A stretch of 53,328 nucleotides of DNA from a virus. Shown one piece after another: positions 1,169 through 51,280 of this stretch; positions within the stretch are counted from its first letter, which is position 1; each line of letters opens with the position of its first letter. The position numbers were made by a program, and so were the translations under genes. The stretch spans positions 1 to 53,328 of IMG/VR virus record IMGVR_UViG_3300047480_000319, one strand, 5' to 3'. Under the pieces are notes generated by a model. That model did no database searches, had not been told where the DNA came from, and worked only from the letters and a program-made list of their open reading frames with translations.

Positions 1169-1653
1169 GAAACCTCTGATTTACCGTCATCACGTTTAAC
1201 AATATTAATATATCCCATATCTCTTTCGGACATATCAATTCCTTCTTCTGCAGCAACCGATGCACTGATATCGCGTAACCATCGATCTATGATTGCTTCA
1301 TCTGGATCTCCGTCTACACCGTATCCTTCTTGCTTTAATTGTAAAATCCAATACTCGTTCCAGTCGATATCATAAAAGCCGTATCTGACACTATTCTTAG
1401 TAACATTTAAGCGTGCGTCAACCCAAGGTTCTTTACGCTTTGTAGCAAGTTCCTTTGGTGTAAGTTTTGCATCTTCTTCTGCTTGTTTACGAAGTTTTTC
1501 TTCTTTTGCCTTTTTTCGAAGTTCTGCTTTTTCTTTCTTTAACGACTCGTTTGCTCTTTTAACAAGCTCTAGTCTTTTTAGTTCTTCTGCCTTTGCTTGT
1601 TCTTCTCGAGCAGTAATACCTGTAATATCTCTAATAAACTTTTTAATTTTCAT
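1165..1653 (-). CDS. Hypothetical protein with long charged coiled coil
   Basis: A 162-residue protein. The N-terminal half (about 15-75) is a lysine/glutamate-rich helix likely to form a coiled coil (repeats such as EEQAKAEELKRLELVK). The C-terminal half is a compact acidic domain with WNEYWILQLKQEGYGV. The ATG at 1653 shares its A with the queE TGA stop and sits behind GGGGAAC, so I prefer it to the TTG three bases upstream. It lies between queE and rnh in the same operon. I do not recognise a function; scaffold or DNA-associated roles would be guesses. Confidence 0.7.
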   Translation of the reverse strand: MKIKKFIRDITGITAREEQAKAEELKRLELVKRANESLKKEKAELRKKAKEEKLRKQAEEDAKLTPKELATKRKEPWVDARLNVTKNSVRYGFYDIDWNEYWILQLKQEGYGVDGDPDEAIIDRWLRDISASVAAEEGIDMSERDMGYINIVKRDDGKSEVS

Positions 1654-2504
1654 CAAGTTCCCCAGCTATTTCCGAATAACGGTAAGTGAAGCCTGTCACT
1701 ATATCTAAGTCCATTTTTTAATGCAAGTTCAGCAACCCTCTTTGCATTGAGGTTGTATACTTCGTTAACACCGCCGACTGGCATTAAGTATACCGGGCCT
1801 TCGAATCCTTCTGCTCGATAAACATCGACAGTTTCTAATGCTTCTTCTACGTCATCTTCGGTAGCTACAACAAACTTAAGGTATGTATAACCAACTTCTT
1901 CGTATTCACAGACTACTGATGGCCGGATAGCATTTTCTCTTGCTTCTCCGGAACAACTTAATTTAGCACTCACACTAAAAGTAATATTATTAGTGTTTGT
2001 TTCGCGTTCTTCTATCCAACTTAATAAGTATGACTTAAAATTTGTATCAAGTGTTTGTGTACCATTCGTTTCGAATGTAATATTTTTAAGTTCTACCATT
2101 TTAGGATGTCCTAACAATGCAGGATATGCTTTTTGCCAACCTAACAATGGTTCACCTCCGGTTATTACAAGATGTTCATCCATCCATTTTTTATAAGGAA
2201 GTAGGTCGAGAATTTCTTCAACTAAATCGTCAATTTTTTTAAACGGACTAAGATCTTTAAATTTAGGATGCCAACTTGCATAACTGTCGCATCCAGTATC
2301 GGCTAACGGTAAAGACTCATAATTTCTATATGGCCCCGATTCTGCAATAATATCTGCTTCTTCGCTTAGTTTACCTTTCGGCATTCCAAAGCCCCGACAT
2401 TGAAAGTTACATCCAAATGTTCTTAAAAACACAGAAGGGACACCCATGTATCTTCCTTCTCCTTGTAAACTATAAAATAGTTCTGATACTTTTATCTGAT
2501 TCAT
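1653..2504 (-). CDS. queE: 7-carboxy-7-deazaguanine synthase, radical SAM
   Basis: QueE converts 6-carboxytetrahydropterin to 7-carboxy-7-deazaguanine, third step of the preQ0 pathway. This 283-residue protein opens with VSELFYSLQGEGRYMGVPS, the usual QueE start. The cluster cysteines are spaced as in a phage-type subfamily: C32 and C36 (GCNFQC), and the third ligand displaced to about C72 (TGCDSYASW) by an insertion. GGEPLLG is the SAM-binding GGE motif. The predicted promoter (2510-2538) leaves only 5 nt between the -10 box and the ATG and no Shine-Dalgarno is present, so its own transcript may be leaderless. It belongs with folE, queD and dpdA in this window. Confidence 0.93.
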   Translation of the reverse strand: MNQIKVSELFYSLQGEGRYMGVPSVFLRTFGCNFQCRGFGMPKGKLSEEADIIAESGPYRNYESLPLADTGCDSYASWHPKFKDLSPFKKIDDLVEEILDLLPYKKWMDEHLVITGGEPLLGWQKAYPALLGHPKMVELKNITFETNGTQTLDTNFKSYLLSWIEERETNTNNITFSVSAKLSCSGEARENAIRPSVVCEYEEVGYTYLKFVVATEDDVEEALETVDVYRAEGFEGPVYLMPVGGVNEVYNLNAKRVAELALKNGLRYSDRLHLPLFGNSWGT

Positions 2505-2509
2505 AATAT

Positions 2510-2538
2510 ATTGTATAATAATTAGTTTGTATTGTCAA
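2510..2538 (-). promoter_or_regulatory. Sigma70-type promoter of queE
   Basis: On the minus strand: TTGACA, 17 bp, TACAAT, then ATATT and the queE ATG. The -35 matches consensus fully and the -10 five of six. The -35 lies inside the 3' end of the upstream radical SAM gene. The predicted transcription start falls on or next to the start codon. Confidence 0.75.
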
Positions 2539-4318
2539 CGATTGAAATGATATTTTTTGATGTGCCTGTTCTTCTATCACGCGCACCACTTGTAATAATT
2601 AAATCTTTCGGTTGTACAGAATAAGTTACAGATTCGTCTACTTCGTTAATAATATCGCAGGTTCCATTTATTAAAATTGGATATGTCGATTCGGAGTTAT
2701 ATAAGAATTCTTTTTGCAATTCGTGTACCCATATAGGAATATCCTTCAATTTTTTTCCTACATCGTAAACAAAATTAAAAATTTCAAACCGATTTTCTGA
2801 CATCCATGCCTTAGTTGAAGTGTGCAAGGCATGTCCCCCGACTGACGAATCTAGTGAACCCGTAGTTAGGTATGTATAGATTGTATTATATAACGATTGA
2901 TATTTTTTAGACATAACTTCGTCGGTTATAATATTTTCTAGCAAAAAGTCATAGAACGTCCTAAACGGAACATTATGCACAAATCGTAGATATCTTGAAA
3001 TAATTTGCGAGTACCCTTGCATATGCCATTGTATAATCATCCATCCATATAAATAGGATTCGGTCATTTCGTGAGTATTCATAGTGCTTGTTGAAATTAC
3101 AAGTTCAATCTTTTCATTAATTCCGTCGTGATTGTGTTTTTTATATTCGTTAAAATTGTAGTAATTAACGTAAATCGCACTTTTGAGCTGATACATTTCT
3201 CGTGATTCGGGTTTTGACAATTCGCTATTTTCGAGTAGCTGTGTAAACCAAATTTCTAAAGCATTATGCTGTCCCATCTCGAGTAATTCACAAAGACCTC
3301 GACACCACGTTTCTTTAGTTTCTAAAGGAAGGCCTAATAATAATTCCGAGTATGACGGTACATTATATTTTTTTGACAATCGAATTAATTCTTTTACATC
3401 GTTAATAGGCAAATTTTTTCTATGAATAGCATCTAATGTATCAGGATTCATACTTTGCAATGCAATAGTAACTCCGATAGCCTTATCGCCTAAAATTTGT
3501 TCAATCTCAAATGCTAGCTCGGTGCTATTTTTTGCTCCTTGTACATTAACAACATCGACTGAAGAATCGTCGGCTGCTGCCTTAATTAACTTAGCGAGTT
3601 CTAAATCTCGTTCTTTAAAAATACCAAAATTTGCATCTGCAATCATCAGGTATCCGATAGGTTTTCCTCGAATCCAATCTAATTCTTGTTGTACATTTTC
3701 GAGTGCAAACTTTTTAACTTTAGAATAGGTAAGACTCCCCCAGTCGCAAAAACTACAGGAATAAGGACATCCTCTATTAGTTTCGATAGTTACATTCCAT
3801 GTAATGTCCGGATTTTCTTCGAGAAGACGATCGAACACTCCGCTAACGTATGGCCCGGAATGGGATAAATCTTGTAGTCGAGTTTTTGGAACAATTGAAT
3901 CTAACTTATTTCCTTTATGTATATCTGTTAAAATTTTAACAAATGCTTCTTCACCTTCTCCTAGAACTATGCAATCTATAAAAGAATAAGAAAGATATCT
4001 TTTGCTAATTTGAGGTCCGCCGAATAATATTACACATTCGGGCCATTTTCTTTTTATTTCTTCTGCCGCAACTAGACAGTATTCAATATTCCAAATATAG
4101 CAACTAAACCCACATATAGTTGGATTTTCAATTTTATCAAGAAGTTCGGGGATCGGATTTCTTTTAAAAAATAGATCTTTTAATACAAAGTTATCTGTTA
4201 CATCCTTAAAGTTTGAGGCATAGTTCCAGAGGACCCCAACAGAATATGGGATCCAATTACTTAATTTTCCATTAAAGAAAATGGTATATTGAGGCTGAAA
4301 CAGATAAACGTTTTTCAC
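2522..4318 (-). CDS. Radical SAM protein with cobalamin-binding-type N-terminal domain
   Basis: A 598-residue radical SAM enzyme. Residues 1 to about 140 look like the B12-binding domain that precedes many radical SAM cores (ILFGGPQISKR, then CIVLGEGEEAF), but I see no DxHxxG lower-ligand motif. The core carries the 4Fe-4S motif C184-x3-C188-x2-C191 (RGCPYSCSFCDWG) and a long TIM-barrel region to about 400. A roughly 200-residue C-terminal extension is unassigned. It starts at GTG, overlapping the folE stop as GTGA, behind AAAGGA. It is sandwiched between folE and queE. Its substrate cannot be read from sequence; a tailoring role on the deazaguanine base is inferred from position only. Methyltransferases, ring-forming enzymes and P-methylases share this architecture. 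Confidence 0.82.
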   Translation of the reverse strand: MKNVYLFQPQYTIFFNGKLSNWIPYSVGVLWNYASNFKDVTDNFVLKDLFFKRNPIPELLDKIENPTICGFSCYIWNIEYCLVAAEEIKRKWPECVILFGGPQISKRYLSYSFIDCIVLGEGEEAFVKILTDIHKGNKLDSIVPKTRLQDLSHSGPYVSGVFDRLLEENPDITWNVTIETNRGCPYSCSFCDWGSLTYSKVKKFALENVQQELDWIRGKPIGYLMIADANFGIFKERDLELAKLIKAAADDSSVDVVNVQGAKNSTELAFEIEQILGDKAIGVTIALQSMNPDTLDAIHRKNLPINDVKELIRLSKKYNVPSYSELLLGLPLETKETWCRGLCELLEMGQHNALEIWFTQLLENSELSKPESREMYQLKSAIYVNYYNFNEYKKHNHDGINEKIELVISTSTMNTHEMTESYLYGWMIIQWHMQGYSQIISRYLRFVHNVPFRTFYDFLLENIITDEVMSKKYQSLYNTIYTYLTTGSLDSSVGGHALHTSTKAWMSENRFEIFNFVYDVGKKLKDIPIWVHELQKEFLYNSESTYPILINGTCDIINEVDESVTYSVQPKDLIITSGARDRRTGTSKNIISIVDNTN

Positions 4319-5075: not shown

Positions 5076-5236
5076 TGATTACGTTTAATATTATGAAGTT
5101 CATCTTCGAGATATTTTTTATATTCGTTCAAAACTTCAAACTTTCTACCACTTTCGCCAGCCTGATTTAAATTCTCAAGATCCTTTACAACTTGATTAAT
5201 CTTTTCTTGTAATTCTTCTATAGTCAAATCACTCAC
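5072..5236 (-). CDS. Small helical hypothetical protein
   Basis: A 54-residue acidic, helix-rich protein. A GTG at 5236 overlaps the phosphoribosyltransferase stop (GTGA) and has GGAGAG upstream, giving MSDLTIEELQEKINQ; the longer GTG start at 5254 would lie inside the upstream gene without benefit. The MSDLTIEEL-type start and heptad pattern recall small conserved proteins of marine myoviruses. No function is assigned. It ends against the folE promoter. Confidence 0.65.
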   Translation of the reverse strand: MSDLTIEELQEKINQVVKDLENLNQAGESGRKFEVLNEYKKYLEDELHNIKRNH

Positions 5237-5730
5237 TTTGAAAATCTCTCCCACGGAAATTCAATCCAAACATCTTCGTTTGCTTTGTTAATTTCCATTC
5301 CACAAAAATCCATTTTTGCATTACACTTACTAGATAGATTGTCAACTAATACTGCAAATTTAACATTGTGATTCCAGACCTTTGTATTCCAGTGATCTTC
5401 TTTAGGGCGGCAAGTAGATTTCCAATCGTCCATTATCCAATTAAGAGTTGCCCCGGTATCGTTAATATCGTCAACAATTAATATATTCTTACCGTCAAAT
5501 GCATCTTCTGACATCCAGCAATTACTTTCCATATCTTCATGATCCCTTAATGAAATTTTTAGGGTATTCATAGGAATATTAAAGTAATGGCTAAGATATA
5601 CGGCAGGAACTAAACCTCCTCGAGTAAGCCCTACGATATAATCCGGCTTCCAACCGCTTCCTTCAATTTGTCGGCAGATATCTAATGCCATTTTTTTAAA
5701 AGTCTTGTTTTTAAGTTTTTCGATCTTCAT
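5233..5730 (-). CDS. Phosphoribosyltransferase, xanthine-guanine (Gpt)-like
   Basis: A 165-residue type I phosphoribosyltransferase. The PRPP-binding loop is ILIVDDINDTGAT (83-95), and VGLTRGGLVPAVYL (about 33-46) is the conserved upstream strand-loop. The C-terminal DVWIEFPWE (about 153-161) resembles the WIEQPWD segment of E. coli Gpt, favouring a purine base (guanine/xanthine/hypoxanthine) substrate over pyrimidines. Gpt-type enzymes convert a free base plus PRPP to the nucleoside monophosphate. Its place among folE, queD, queE and dpdA suggests recovery of guanine released when DpdA exchanges bases; that role is inference. The start overlaps the upstream gene by 20 nt with AAAGG before the ATG. 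Confidence 0.85.
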   Translation of the reverse strand: MKIEKLKNKTFKKMALDICRQIEGSGWKPDYIVGLTRGGLVPAVYLSHYFNIPMNTLKISLRDHEDMESNCWMSEDAFDGKNILIVDDINDTGATLNWIMDDWKSTCRPKEDHWNTKVWNHNVKFAVLVDNLSSKCNAKMDFCGMEINKANEDVWIEFPWERFSK

Positions 5731-6124
5731 TCTTTAGCCTTTTCCAAGTTTTATATTTTTCTAGTTCTGAGTTGTATTCTTCCCACAGGTGTTTTAATTT
5801 AGGAAATTCTTTTTCCATTTCTACATCTCGGGAAGGAATGTTTAAAAGCGTTTCAATCCTTTCTAATCTTTTGCTTAAATCTTCACCGTTCATCACAATG
5901 GTTCCTTTAACATTTAATGCTGCTGATGGTTCTACAATAACCTCATTACCATTTGATGGTATGCTCATTACTGGATTACTATTAGCATGAAATACAGTAC
6001 TTGGAGTAGTCCAACTTACTGTATTGTTTGCACTTGTTATATAACTTCCATTATTTCCTATAATGTTACTGCATACTAGACTAGTGATATCGTTAGGATC
6101 ACATGTTTGTGACTTAGTTGCCAT
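5711..6124 (-). CDS. Hypothetical protein, beta-rich N-terminus and helical C-terminus
   Basis: A 137-residue protein. The first roughly 80 residues are Ser/Thr/Asn/Val-rich, like phage structural beta domains. From about 83 it becomes helical and charged (LSKRLERIETLLNIPSRDVE), ending in Lys/Glu-rich helices. This C-terminal type recurs in marine T4-like phage proteins as far as I recall, but no role is known to me. It overlaps the glycosyltransferase stop by 11 nt and the phosphoribosyltransferase start by 20 nt, so all three are translationally coupled. Confidence 0.65.
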   Translation of the reverse strand: MATKSQTCDPNDITSLVCSNIIGNNGSYITSANNTVSWTTPSTVFHANSNPVMSIPSNGNEVIVEPSAALNVKGTIVMNGEDLSKRLERIETLLNIPSRDVEMEKEFPKLKHLWEEYNSELEKYKTWKRLKNEDRKT

Positions 6125-7199
6125 TCTTTTTAGATGCTAACTCTTTATATAACTCGTCTGCCGAAAAGAAGTCATAGGTTAGCGATTTTGCTTGCTTTTT
6201 TAACCATGGTAGACGAGTTGTGTAGAAGTTCATATGATCCATAATTGTTTTACATAGATCAACACGATAGATTTCGTATAGTTCAAATGATTCAGTCCAT
6301 TCGCTTGGGTATTTAAAGATTGGTTCGTACATTTCCGAGTAGCTTAACCGATCCGGAACCATAGGAATTGCATCAAGTAAACAGCCTTCATACATACTAA
6401 TTCCAAGAGTTTCTTGTAAATTAGCACTAAAGACCATCTTAGCCTCACCTAATAATTTATGATATTCGTCCTTAGTAAGTTTCTGTTCTTGACATACAAC
6501 CCATTCATATTGCGGAAGATGTTTTTCCAAGTCTTTAAAAATTTCGATCTGCTTTTCTGGAGCAATACGATGTGGAAATAAAATTAAGTCTCTTTTTTGT
6601 AGACTAGTAAATGGAAGTAAAGTGTCCTGCATGTACTCCATAGGCCATCCGGATCTAACAATTTTGTTATTGTCGTGATTTTCACGAAGCCCTACAATGC
6701 TTTCTAATAACTCGTTGCAAAATAGTTCTATATGAAAATTAGTGGCAAAATAGTTATGATCGATTGCGTGAAAAAAACTTTTTTCTGCGTGTCTGACCCA
6801 AGGTGTATTTCCGATAAGTCGTCCTAAAAAGTCTTGCGGGTCATAACTGCCGGCATGCCATAATGCGTGAATTGTTACAGGAATTTGTAGCAACTCGCTC
6901 ATATACTTTAAGTTGATAATGCCAGGATGCCAAGCATCTGTAAAGACAAAATGATCGCCAGCAACAATCTTGCCTGCCGTGAAGAGTCTAGATATACTTT
7001 CCACTTGTGCAGCCTTGTATATGTTGGTGCCGCCAAAATTAAGAAAAGCGCCGGGAGTAGTAGCAGCTGGGATGTCAGCAGGGCCTGATATAATGTATAC
7101 TTCATGTCCTTTTTCTTTAAGCATGGAAGGTACATGGGTCTTCCACTGACCCGTGTACCTTGTATCAACTGCTTCTAGATCAACTAGAAAAATTGTCAT
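6114..7199 (-). CDS. GT4-like glycosyltransferase (GT-B fold)
   Basis: A 361-residue retaining-type glycosyltransferase. The C-terminal nucleotide-sugar half contains LILFPHRIAPEKQIEIF (about 205-221) and the E-x7-E motif E263-TLGISMY-E271, typical of the GT4 family. The N-terminal half has DAWHPG and ALWHAGSYD loops of the acceptor side. No signal peptide or membrane segment is present, so it should act in the cytoplasm. Phage enzymes of this kind glycosylate modified DNA bases or virion proteins. Its place in the deazaguanine block makes DNA an attractive acceptor, but that is inference; lipopolysaccharide alteration is another option. Confidence 0.8.
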   Translation of the reverse strand: MTIFLVDLEAVDTRYTGQWKTHVPSMLKEKGHEVYIISGPADIPAATTPGAFLNFGGTNIYKAAQVESISRLFTAGKIVAGDHFVFTDAWHPGIINLKYMSELLQIPVTIHALWHAGSYDPQDFLGRLIGNTPWVRHAEKSFFHAIDHNYFATNFHIELFCNELLESIVGLRENHDNNKIVRSGWPMEYMQDTLLPFTSLQKRDLILFPHRIAPEKQIEIFKDLEKHLPQYEWVVCQEQKLTKDEYHKLLGEAKMVFSANLQETLGISMYEGCLLDAIPMVPDRLSYSEMYEPIFKYPSEWTESFELYEIYRVDLCKTIMDHMNFYTTRLPWLKKQAKSLTYDFFSADELYKELASKKNGN

Positions 7200-7501: not shown

Positions 7502-7870
7502 TTAATGGTTTAAAAATTTTAGAAGACAGCCGTTTTCGCCATCTTCGCTTACTTCAATCCAAGTCTCACGAGTTGGATACCTGTAACTAATTTGCTCGTA
7601 AAGTTCACGTGCAAGCATTTCACAGGATTTGTGATTCAGTTCAAGTGTGCTAGTGCCATATAGTCCTTCAAGCCATCTCTTAAACTGAATAAATTCGATT
7701 TCACGATCGTCGTGTTGTACTTCAATCCATACTTTAAAATGGAACATGTGACGATGCGGATGTGATAAAAATGCAACATCATTTAAATTAGGATTAGTTG
7801 CTGCCTCTGGATAACAATGAATTCCTTCACGGCTAAATGTTACCCAAATCATTGATGTTTCTTTATTCAT
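7502..7870 (-). CDS. queD: 6-carboxytetrahydropterin synthase-like protein
   Basis: QueD turns dihydroneopterin triphosphate into 6-carboxytetrahydropterin, second step of deazaguanine synthesis. The 122-residue protein has the tetrahydropterin-synthase fold signatures: GIHCYP with a likely catalytic C19, the metal-binding H-x-H in SHPHRHMFHFKV (H39, H41), LELNHKSCEMLA, and a C-terminal EVSEDGENG. The length is typical of QueD. A sigma70-type promoter at 7877-7905 places the transcription start at the ATG and there is no ribosome site, so this message may be leaderless; an internal ATG at 7852 is the alternative start. Confidence 0.88.
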   Translation of the reverse strand: MNKETSMIWVTFSREGIHCYPEAATNPNLNDVAFLSHPHRHMFHFKVWIEVQHDDREIEFIQFKRWLEGLYGTSTLELNHKSCEMLARELYEQISYRYPTRETWIEVSEDGENGCLLKFLNH

Positions 7871-7921: not shown

Positions 7922-8446
7922 TTATTTAATAATATTATCGTTTTTGTAAGCAGTCCAGGACGTAAATGCATTTTTGTCCATTAACGTGTGCAAACTATGA
8001 GACCATACACCTGGATTAGTTGCATTAAAATCTTTATCATCAATTTTAATAGTAGTGTTGTAGTTCCATAGTTTAGTATACGGAATCGGAACGCGAATTT
8101 GTGGAATAAAGTTATTATATTCACATAAACAGCTTTCGTTAAATTCTTCAACTTGACTCATTGGAATATCTAACGAGCACAAGTAATCTTTATCTAAGAA
8201 ATACTTTATCATAGATTCCCATTCTTCATGTTGCTCATATCCGTACGGATCGTAGCTGTGATTCGCACCAAAAAAGATATGGCTAGTTTCATAGGTTGAA
8301 ATTGCTAAACAATCTTCGATGTCTTTAACTAATTGTACCCCTACTACAAATAACGTGTGCATTCCATATGCAGGAGTGTGTTCGACTTCATATCCGGTAA
8401 AAAACTTAATGTTTTCTGCAGAGCCGTCTGTATAATTACGTTTCAT
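7922..8446 (-). CDS. Conserved hypothetical protein paired with dpdA
   Basis: A 174-residue soluble protein with no motif I can assign. It begins MKRNYTDGSAENIKFFTGYE and contains EHTPAYGMHTLFVVG, ISTYETSHIFFGANH and KIDDKDFNATNPGVWSH. The strong, even conservation-like character (many Gly, His, Trp, Asp) suggests an enzyme rather than a structural protein. The ATG at 8446 lies inside the last codons of dpdA behind AGAGG, so it is translationally coupled to dpdA; the TTG three bases earlier is less likely. I recall relatives in marine myoviruses, which makes a role in the deazaguanine pathway worth testing. Confidence 0.75.
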   Translation of the reverse strand: MKRNYTDGSAENIKFFTGYEVEHTPAYGMHTLFVVGVQLVKDIEDCLAISTYETSHIFFGANHSYDPYGYEQHEEWESMIKYFLDKDYLCSLDIPMSQVEEFNESCLCEYNNFIPQIRVPIPYTKLWNYNTTIKIDDKDFNATNPGVWSHSLHTLMDKNAFTSWTAYKNDNIIK

Positions 8447-10049
8447 CAATATTGTCCTCTAATTCTTCTAACTTATCTACAGCCGCAGGGGTAAACTCCC
8501 CATCTTTATCAAATATTTCAATTTCCTTTTCAAAGTCAGGATCTTCTTGAACAAAGTGCTCTCCAAATTTATGTCTAGCACTAATAGTTTTAGAACCAAC
8601 AGCACCTCTTGTTCCGGGTATATCCAACCAATATCTTTTACATTCTTCAATTATCCCTTCGGCAACACCTCGATCGCTAGTAGCAAAAATAGCATCAACA
8701 ATATTTTTAAAGAAATGTCCGTATGGGTATTCTTTATGAACTTTTTTATTCGAATCTACAACAGATAGCATTGCAGGAATACAATGTGCATCATATTGTC
8801 GATTTGCCTCTTGAACAGCGTTAATATGATGCCAAACATTGTGCCCCATTTGAATAGCATAACTAAAACTATCCCAACTAGTCTTTCCTTCTTTGCCTAT
8901 TTTGTTTAAATCGCCGGGTGCGTAAATACAAATGTCTTTAATAGGTACCTGATCGATCAATGGACTAGGTTCAAATCCGTATGCACTTTTTTTACCTTTT
9001 TTAAATATTTTGTCCTGTACAACCGCATCTTTAAATAGTCGAATATCATTTGCATACTTTTTATCATCGGCACTTTTCATCATGCGATAAACCCACTTTT
9101 CTCTATCATTAGTTTCAGTAACAATATAAATTTGTCCGTTTGCAGTTGCCAAGAACGGACTTGCACAATCGAAACTAATAGTGAAATTTGGATTATGATA
9201 TTTTCGAACAGCTCGTTGAATATCAGTAAGTAAACACGCCCATTCTAATTTACTAGTTCCTAAGAAGTGCATCCAATCGTGCAATCCTTGTTCTAAAAGA
9301 CCGTCAAATCTTAAAGCTACTAATCTTTTAAGAACTAGATGAACATCACACATGTTTTGTCCACCCATTGCCCATCCGTTAAATGCACGATCTCCGTATA
9401 CTTTCGGATCGCAATACTTCTTCATGCGATCATACCAGTCGTCTGCTTCGTTAAAACTTTCTCCTTGCAGAACATTTAAAAATTTGCAATTACCGTTACG
9501 ATTATTAATAAACCAGTCGTTATTAATATAAGTTCCTTGTACAGCTTCTGCATAACTTGTAATGCCAGTAGCAGCTCGACCGGTAGGACTTCTTTCAACC
9601 CATGCAGGAATATCTAAGCACATACCGTAATCCATTAAAGAATCCATCCATGTAAGTACTTGTTCCCTCTTTTTTTGAGCCTTTGGGCAATTAGGATCCT
9701 TCCAATCGGCTGCCCATACTCCTTTACCTATCTGGAATCCGCCCGAGTCTCCTAATACCCAACTAGTGGTTCGATCTCGGTTACGAAACATGTCTTCTTT
9801 TTCGTCATGCTTTGTAAGATCTAAGTTAGCATGTCCTGCAGAGTATAAGCACCAGTTATAGTAAAATGATCCTTTAACGGGATCTAAGTAGTTTAAACTT
9901 TCGATCCCATTAGCAAAAGATGCAGGAATACGAGCAGGATCTACATAATTACCGTATCGCTGTTTCCCAATAAAAGTAGAATAGAATCCCGACGTTGCTG
10001 GCAAGAATACAGCATAGTCTTTTTGTGTTGTGGTTAAATCTTTATTCAT
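8436..10049 (-). CDS. dpdA: DpdA-type DNA guanine transglycosylase (TGT-like)
   Basis: A 537-residue protein related to tRNA-guanine transglycosylase. TGT-like marks in order: LGDSGGFQIG with the base-binding aspartate D101, LNVLQGE (about 191-197), WAMGGQ (about 226-231), HFLGTSKLEW (about 261-270) and SFDCASPF with the likely nucleophile D294. TGTs exchange guanine for a deazaguanine in tRNA; phage DpdA enzymes do so in DNA. With folE, queD and queE nearby and no tRNA-modification context, DNA is the likely substrate. It is longer than bacterial TGT (about 375), with an acidic C-terminal extension. The start overlaps the upstream stop (ATGA). Confidence 0.85.
   Translation of the reverse strand: MNKDLTTTQKDYAVFLPATSGFYSTFIGKQRYGNYVDPARIPASFANGIESLNYLDPVKGSFYYNWCLYSAGHANLDLTKHDEKEDMFRNRDRTTSWVLGDSGGFQIGKGVWAADWKDPNCPKAQKKREQVLTWMDSLMDYGMCLDIPAWVERSPTGRAATGITSYAEAVQGTYINNDWFINNRNGNCKFLNVLQGESFNEADDWYDRMKKYCDPKVYGDRAFNGWAMGGQNMCDVHLVLKRLVALRFDGLLEQGLHDWMHFLGTSKLEWACLLTDIQRAVRKYHNPNFTISFDCASPFLATANGQIYIVTETNDREKWVYRMMKSADDKKYANDIRLFKDAVVQDKIFKKGKKSAYGFEPSPLIDQVPIKDICIYAPGDLNKIGKEGKTSWDSFSYAIQMGHNVWHHINAVQEANRQYDAHCIPAMLSVVDSNKKVHKEYPYGHFFKNIVDAIFATSDRGVAEGIIEECKRYWLDIPGTRGAVGSKTISARHKFGEHFVQEDPDFEKEIEIFDKDGEFTPAAVDKLEELEDNIDET

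Positions 10050-40390: not shown

Positions 40391-40391
<1 letters not shown>
39903..40391 (-). CDS. Small fibre-type structural protein
   Basis: A 162-residue protein with the shared N-terminal module MSQQLINIGLNPNDRSGDLI then RTAFDKVNQNF (about 1-36) and a beta-rich C-terminal domain (about 60-160) with two cysteine pairs. The start overlaps the stop of the giant fibre gene as TAATG, so the two are translated together. It may cap or attach the giant fibre. Confidence 0.7.

Positions 40392-51280
<10,889 letters not shown>

Follow-up and report, generated by a model that had tools for sequence, protein, structure and literature searches.

The phage 7-deazaguanine pathway engages FolE, QueD, QueE, QueC and DpdA, and its description (PMC6884629) does not contain the term "radical SAM". 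Among cobalamin-dependent radical SAM (rSAM) enzymes, TokK, the carbapenem C6 methylase (PDB 7kdx/7kdy), is built of a B12 Rossmann domain, a radical SAM core and a C-terminal helical domain, while CysS (PDB 9n1b-d) is the iterative methylase of cystobactamid. TokK Trp76 and CysS Trp75 lie under the cobalt of a cobalamin that is held base-off (PMC13331322, PMC12846815). A literature search found no description of cobalamin rSAM enzymes in phages.

The stretch of DNA analysed here, called the window, covers positions 1 to 53,328 of virus record IMGVR_UViG_3300047480_000319 (53,328 bases). It codes an rSAM protein between folE and queE, whose products belong to the 7-deazaguanine pathway. The features of the region are:

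1653..2504, minus strand, queE-like gene for 7-carboxy-7-deazaguanine synthase (PHROG QueE-like, E 1.6e-54)
2510..2538, minus strand, promoter-like site ahead of queE, within and just past the rSAM 3' end
2522..4318, minus strand, cobalamin-dependent radical SAM enzyme, TokK/CysS-like (ORF, profile matches, predicted fold)
3746..3769, minus strand, CPYSCSFC, the [4Fe-4S] cluster motif C184-x3-C188-x2-C191
4091..4093, minus strand, Trp76 codon in FSCYIWN, counterpart of TokK Trp76 at the lower face of cobalt (PMC13331322)
4315..5004, minus strand, folE, GTP cyclohydrolase I (Pfam GTP_cyclohydroI, E 4e-47)
5233..5730, minus strand, phosphoribosyltransferase, frequent in the DpdA cassette
6114..7199, minus strand, glycosyltransferase-like protein of 361 aa that tracks DpdA (weak Pfam glycosyltransferase scores)
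8436..10049, minus strand, DpdA-type transglycosylase (TGT fold) for deazaguanine insertion, context rather than rSAM partner

The rSAM ORF codes 598 residues and starts with a GTG codon (4318-4316) that overlaps the folE TGA (4317-4315) and has AAAGGA upstream (4329-4324). This start is supported because homologues open with the same MKNxYLFQPQ sequence, there with ATG. The final rSAM codons are overlapped by TTGACA-17-TACAAT (2538-2510, minus strand), a sigma70-like site with 11/12 matches that precedes queE. Such sites are not commoner across the region than in shuffles (14 versus 15.9), so that its reading as a promoter rests on strength and placement. The GC content of the rSAM gene (33.8%; 36.3% overall) is not unusual. 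Five features of the first-pass annotation are present in the sequence, namely the ORF, its overlap with folE, the cysteine motif, a B12-type domain and the promoter-like site that precedes queE.

Searches of Pfam and PHROG gave no match for the protein coded by 8436-10049, and sequence searches of the PDB gave none of note. Its AF2 model (pLDDT 85.9) matches tRNA-guanine transglycosylases among the forty best structure hits, with E values of about 1e-6 to 4e-4 and target-normalised TM scores mostly of 0.4-0.5. It has therefore a TGT fold and the deazaguanine setting of the phage is sound. A phage DNA polymerase gene is found near dpdA. Neither a QueC match nor a Pfam PTPS match, which would identify QueD at the Pfam level, was found in the window record, which may be a fragment. 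The 122-residue phrog_17812 protein coded at 7502-7870 (minus strand) has motifs that resemble QueD by eye and occurs in phages that also have a true QueD. Positions 7922-8449 (minus strand) code a 175-residue companion found after dpdA in 70/80 loci, without Pfam, PHROG or PDB match. Note also a giant ORF of 3628 residues (40391-51277, minus strand) without Pfam match or tandem repeats.

The rSAM protein features a Pfam B12-binding domain (PF02310) at residues 64-129 (E 4.6e-10; 39.8 bits for a cut-off of 32.1) and a Pfam Radical_SAM domain at residues 179-337 (E 4.9e-11). Searches of the PDB matched it to TokK by sequence (E 2.6e-66) and by profile (E 2.1e-138), and to CysS by profile (E 2.6e-83). 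Its AF2 model (pLDDT 90.7, pTM 0.89) has the three-domain organization of TokK, to which it compares with a TM score of 0.85-0.88 that includes the C-terminal helical domain, while the score with CysS is about 0.75. Identity in the structural alignment is 23% with TokK and 19% with CysS, and the window enzyme differs from the former in being phage-encoded and without beta-lactam context; the CysS substrate gate Trp271 aligns with Asn258. The cysteines C184, C188 and C191 are invariant in 63/63 rSAM relatives, as is W76, the counterpart of the tryptophan placed under cobalt in both described enzymes; Asn77, Glu179, Arg182, Lys263 and others are likewise invariant. The MetH-type B12-binding motif DxHxxG is absent from the translation, as expected because a tryptophan fills that place in TokK and CysS. 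Its absence does not imply, as had been proposed, that cobalamin is bound base-on or not at all; the conserved residues indicate that cobalamin binding is likely. The assignment to the B12-dependent rSAM enzymes made in the first-pass annotation is strongly supported, and the protein is most likely a C-methylase. A comparison of pocket residues among rSAM proteins revealed no signature specific to a genomic context and none that names the substrate.

The same annotation saw the enzyme as locked inside the pathway and suggested the deazaguanine base or an intermediate as its substrate, a part that is not supported. Most homologues lie away from deazaguanine genes, an outcome that the annotation itself had named as speaking against this part. 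A scan of viral contigs yielded at least 349 confirmed rSAM stretches, of which 78 loci were kept, and 83 viral rSAM loci including the window were compared. A deazaguanine gene is in range at 20/83 of them and none is at 63/83, these loci reaching at most 10 kb per side on contigs that are often short, so that gene absence is soft evidence. None of 80 bacterial rSAM loci has folE, queE or dpdA. When 19 rSAM records that lack a deazaguanine gene within the surveyed range were searched over their whole length, a single one proved to code QueE and DpdA, at a distance of about 70 kb from its rSAM gene. The reverse survey found an rSAM gene at 0/80 of the nearest DpdA loci. Among 19 longer records with DpdA relatives, 16 have no rSAM match, two have weak partial ones and a single one has a full-length match (E 1.7e-102), separated from dpdA by over 60 kb. 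Both systems are present in two phages, 60-70 kb apart.

About a dozen distinct viral rSAM relatives are also found in deazaguanine regions. Their position and the gene order of the cassettes change between phages, and the folE-queE interval of 32 DpdA relatives varies from 220 to 3,077 bases, with differing, unrelated small genes. The rSAM proteins found at deazaguanine loci do not group together in any (0%) of 200 bootstrap trees, although the AU test does not reject their being a single clade (p 0.129). The window rSAM paired as sister of a sugar-cluster homologue (L011) in a quick tree (SH-aLRT 96), a pairing that a careful tree did not resolve and that is therefore set aside.

A different set of genes accompanies the rSAM gene. 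At the 19 loci where it is found with folE, queE or dpdA, a DegT-like gene is present in 16, an SDR of NDP-sugar epimerase/dehydratase type in 13 and a SpoChoClust_2+SpoChoClust_1 fusion (sporadic-carbohydrate-cluster) in 10, while each is at 0/80 in DpdA loci without rSAM; these neighbourhood statistics, including Fisher p-values for the sugar genes, ignore relatedness. Only three of these loci lack the sugar module: the window itself and L002 and L003, which are copies of it at 100% identity. Searches for the SDR, DegT, 2OG and SpoChoClust families found none of them in the window record or in the records that are its siblings. In the DpdA phage G009 the rSAM homologue, more than 60 kb from dpdA, lies beside a StrB-like amidinotransferase gene (E 3.7e-60) and genes for a UDP-sugar dehydrogenase, an epimerase/SDR, a DegT-like protein, a TauD/oxygenase and a SPASM radical SAM protein, and the surroundings of the rSAM gene in phage L011/L012 resemble it, as read by eye from the ORFs. 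Bacterial rSAM neighbours include epimerases, GT2 proteins, aldo-keto reductases, DegT proteins and nucleotidyltransferases. A second group with many relatives is made of tandem rSAM pairs among structural genes, with weak carbohydrate hints.

Some arrangements seen in the survey are worth recording. The large phage clusters of L246 (G009:84000-100000) and L012 resemble a secondary-metabolite or rare-sugar pathway; they combine genes for StrB-like amidinotransferases, a sugar dehydrogenase, DegT, SPASM radical SAM proteins and 2OG oxygenases. Tandem pairs of TokK-like rSAM genes in opposite orientation are found amid myovirus-like structural genes in L019, L022, L055 and others, and tandem arrays of at least three in Clostridia genomes (L164, L165, L167, L168, L169, L172, L191).

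From the fold, motifs, cofactor-site residues and gene neighbourhoods observed here, the window enzyme is somewhat more probably than otherwise a B12 radical C-methylase of a sugar-like substrate, whose gene occupies the variable space between folE and queE in a DpdA phage as cargo. SAM would methylate cob(I)alamin held base-off over Trp76, and a second SAM would be cleaved at the C184/C188/C191 [4Fe-4S] cluster to give a 5'-deoxyadenosyl radical. This radical would abstract hydrogen from an unreactive carbon, to which methylcobalamin would then donate the methyl group. The substrate may be a nucleotide sugar or an amino/guanidino sugar from a mobile sugar-modification module, and cobalamin would presumably be supplied by the host. 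The main weakness of the sugar-cargo reading is that the partner genes were not found in the records of the window phage.

The gene whose distribution follows dpdA is that of the glycosyltransferase (GT)-like protein (6114-7199). Of 46 loci with enough room for it, 44 have it at most 6.5 kb downstream of dpdA, and in the other two it directly abuts dpdA. Deazaguanine genes are present at 71/71 loci with the GT-like gene, in a set of loci gathered through DpdA or rSAM. The homologue of Pseudomonas phage Paride overlaps the dpdA end, that of Sinorhizobium phage Phosso neighbours folE and queE, and that of Acidovorax phage ACP17 comes immediately after a TGT-like gene, close to queE, folE and queD. 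In ACP17, a DSGG motif and a weak hhalign match (probability 5.6, E 0.0068) are the basis of the TGT-like reading. Sequence scores support the GT assignment weakly, and some homologue records are annotated as glycosyltransferase. The GT-like protein is a better candidate for base tailoring than the rSAM protein, and its presence beside dpdA may point to glycosylated 7-deazaguanine DNA. It is also conserved beside dpdA in the cultured phage PA5oct.

Other substrates of the rSAM enzyme have to be weighed against the sugar-cargo reading. The enzyme could tailor a sugar that the DpdA-linked GT-like protein puts on DNA 7-deazaguanine, so that hypermodification would proceed via the sugar and not the base. 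The tight association of the GT-like gene with dpdA speaks for it, as do four loci (L007-L010) with the order GT - SDR - DegT - SDR - 2OG - rSAM - SpoChoClust - folE; however, most DpdA phages with the GT-like gene are devoid of rSAM and sugar genes, these are also found at a distance from dpdA or in records that lack it, and the GT assignment is itself weak, which makes this alternative unlikely. The fuller scheme, in which DpdA phages glycosylate 7-deazaguanine through the GT-like protein and, in some of them, rSAM together with SDR, DegT-like protein and oxygenase makes its C-methylated rare sugar, is slightly less probable still.

An action on some other small molecule, peptide or lipid, as known for KedN5, TokK, CysS and RiPP methylases, or a non-methylating reaction such as the AprD4-type dehydration, is likewise improbable. 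The best NCBIfam match of the window rSAM is the KedN5 family (NF033712; residues 64-379, E 3.9e-45), to which it does not belong by score (154 bits for a cut-off of 700), and AprD4, whose substrate is the aminoglycoside paromamine, matches the fold less well; the association with sugar genes argues against such substrates and the intact cobalamin site disfavours AprD4-type chemistry. The original proposal that the enzyme C-methylates or otherwise alters the deazaguanine base or an intermediate draws on its position between folE and queE and on its relatives in deazaguanine regions, but the shifting position of the gene, the variable folE-queE gap, its absence from the nearest DpdA loci and the occurrence of most relatives elsewhere make it very improbable; the base as direct rSAM substrate was rejected on this neighbourhood evidence.

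The window illustrates that a gene can be cargo even when it lies within a pathway cluster. It gives access to a large family of phage TokK-like cobalamin rSAM enzymes, whose genes frequently come in pairs and frequently lie in sugar modules. With the GT-like gene in focus, glycosylated deazaguanine DNA can be tested for in cultured phages, for instance Paride and ACP17. If the scheme joining both enzymes were true, a C-methylated rare sugar on DNA 7-deazaguanine would be an undescribed hypermodified base.
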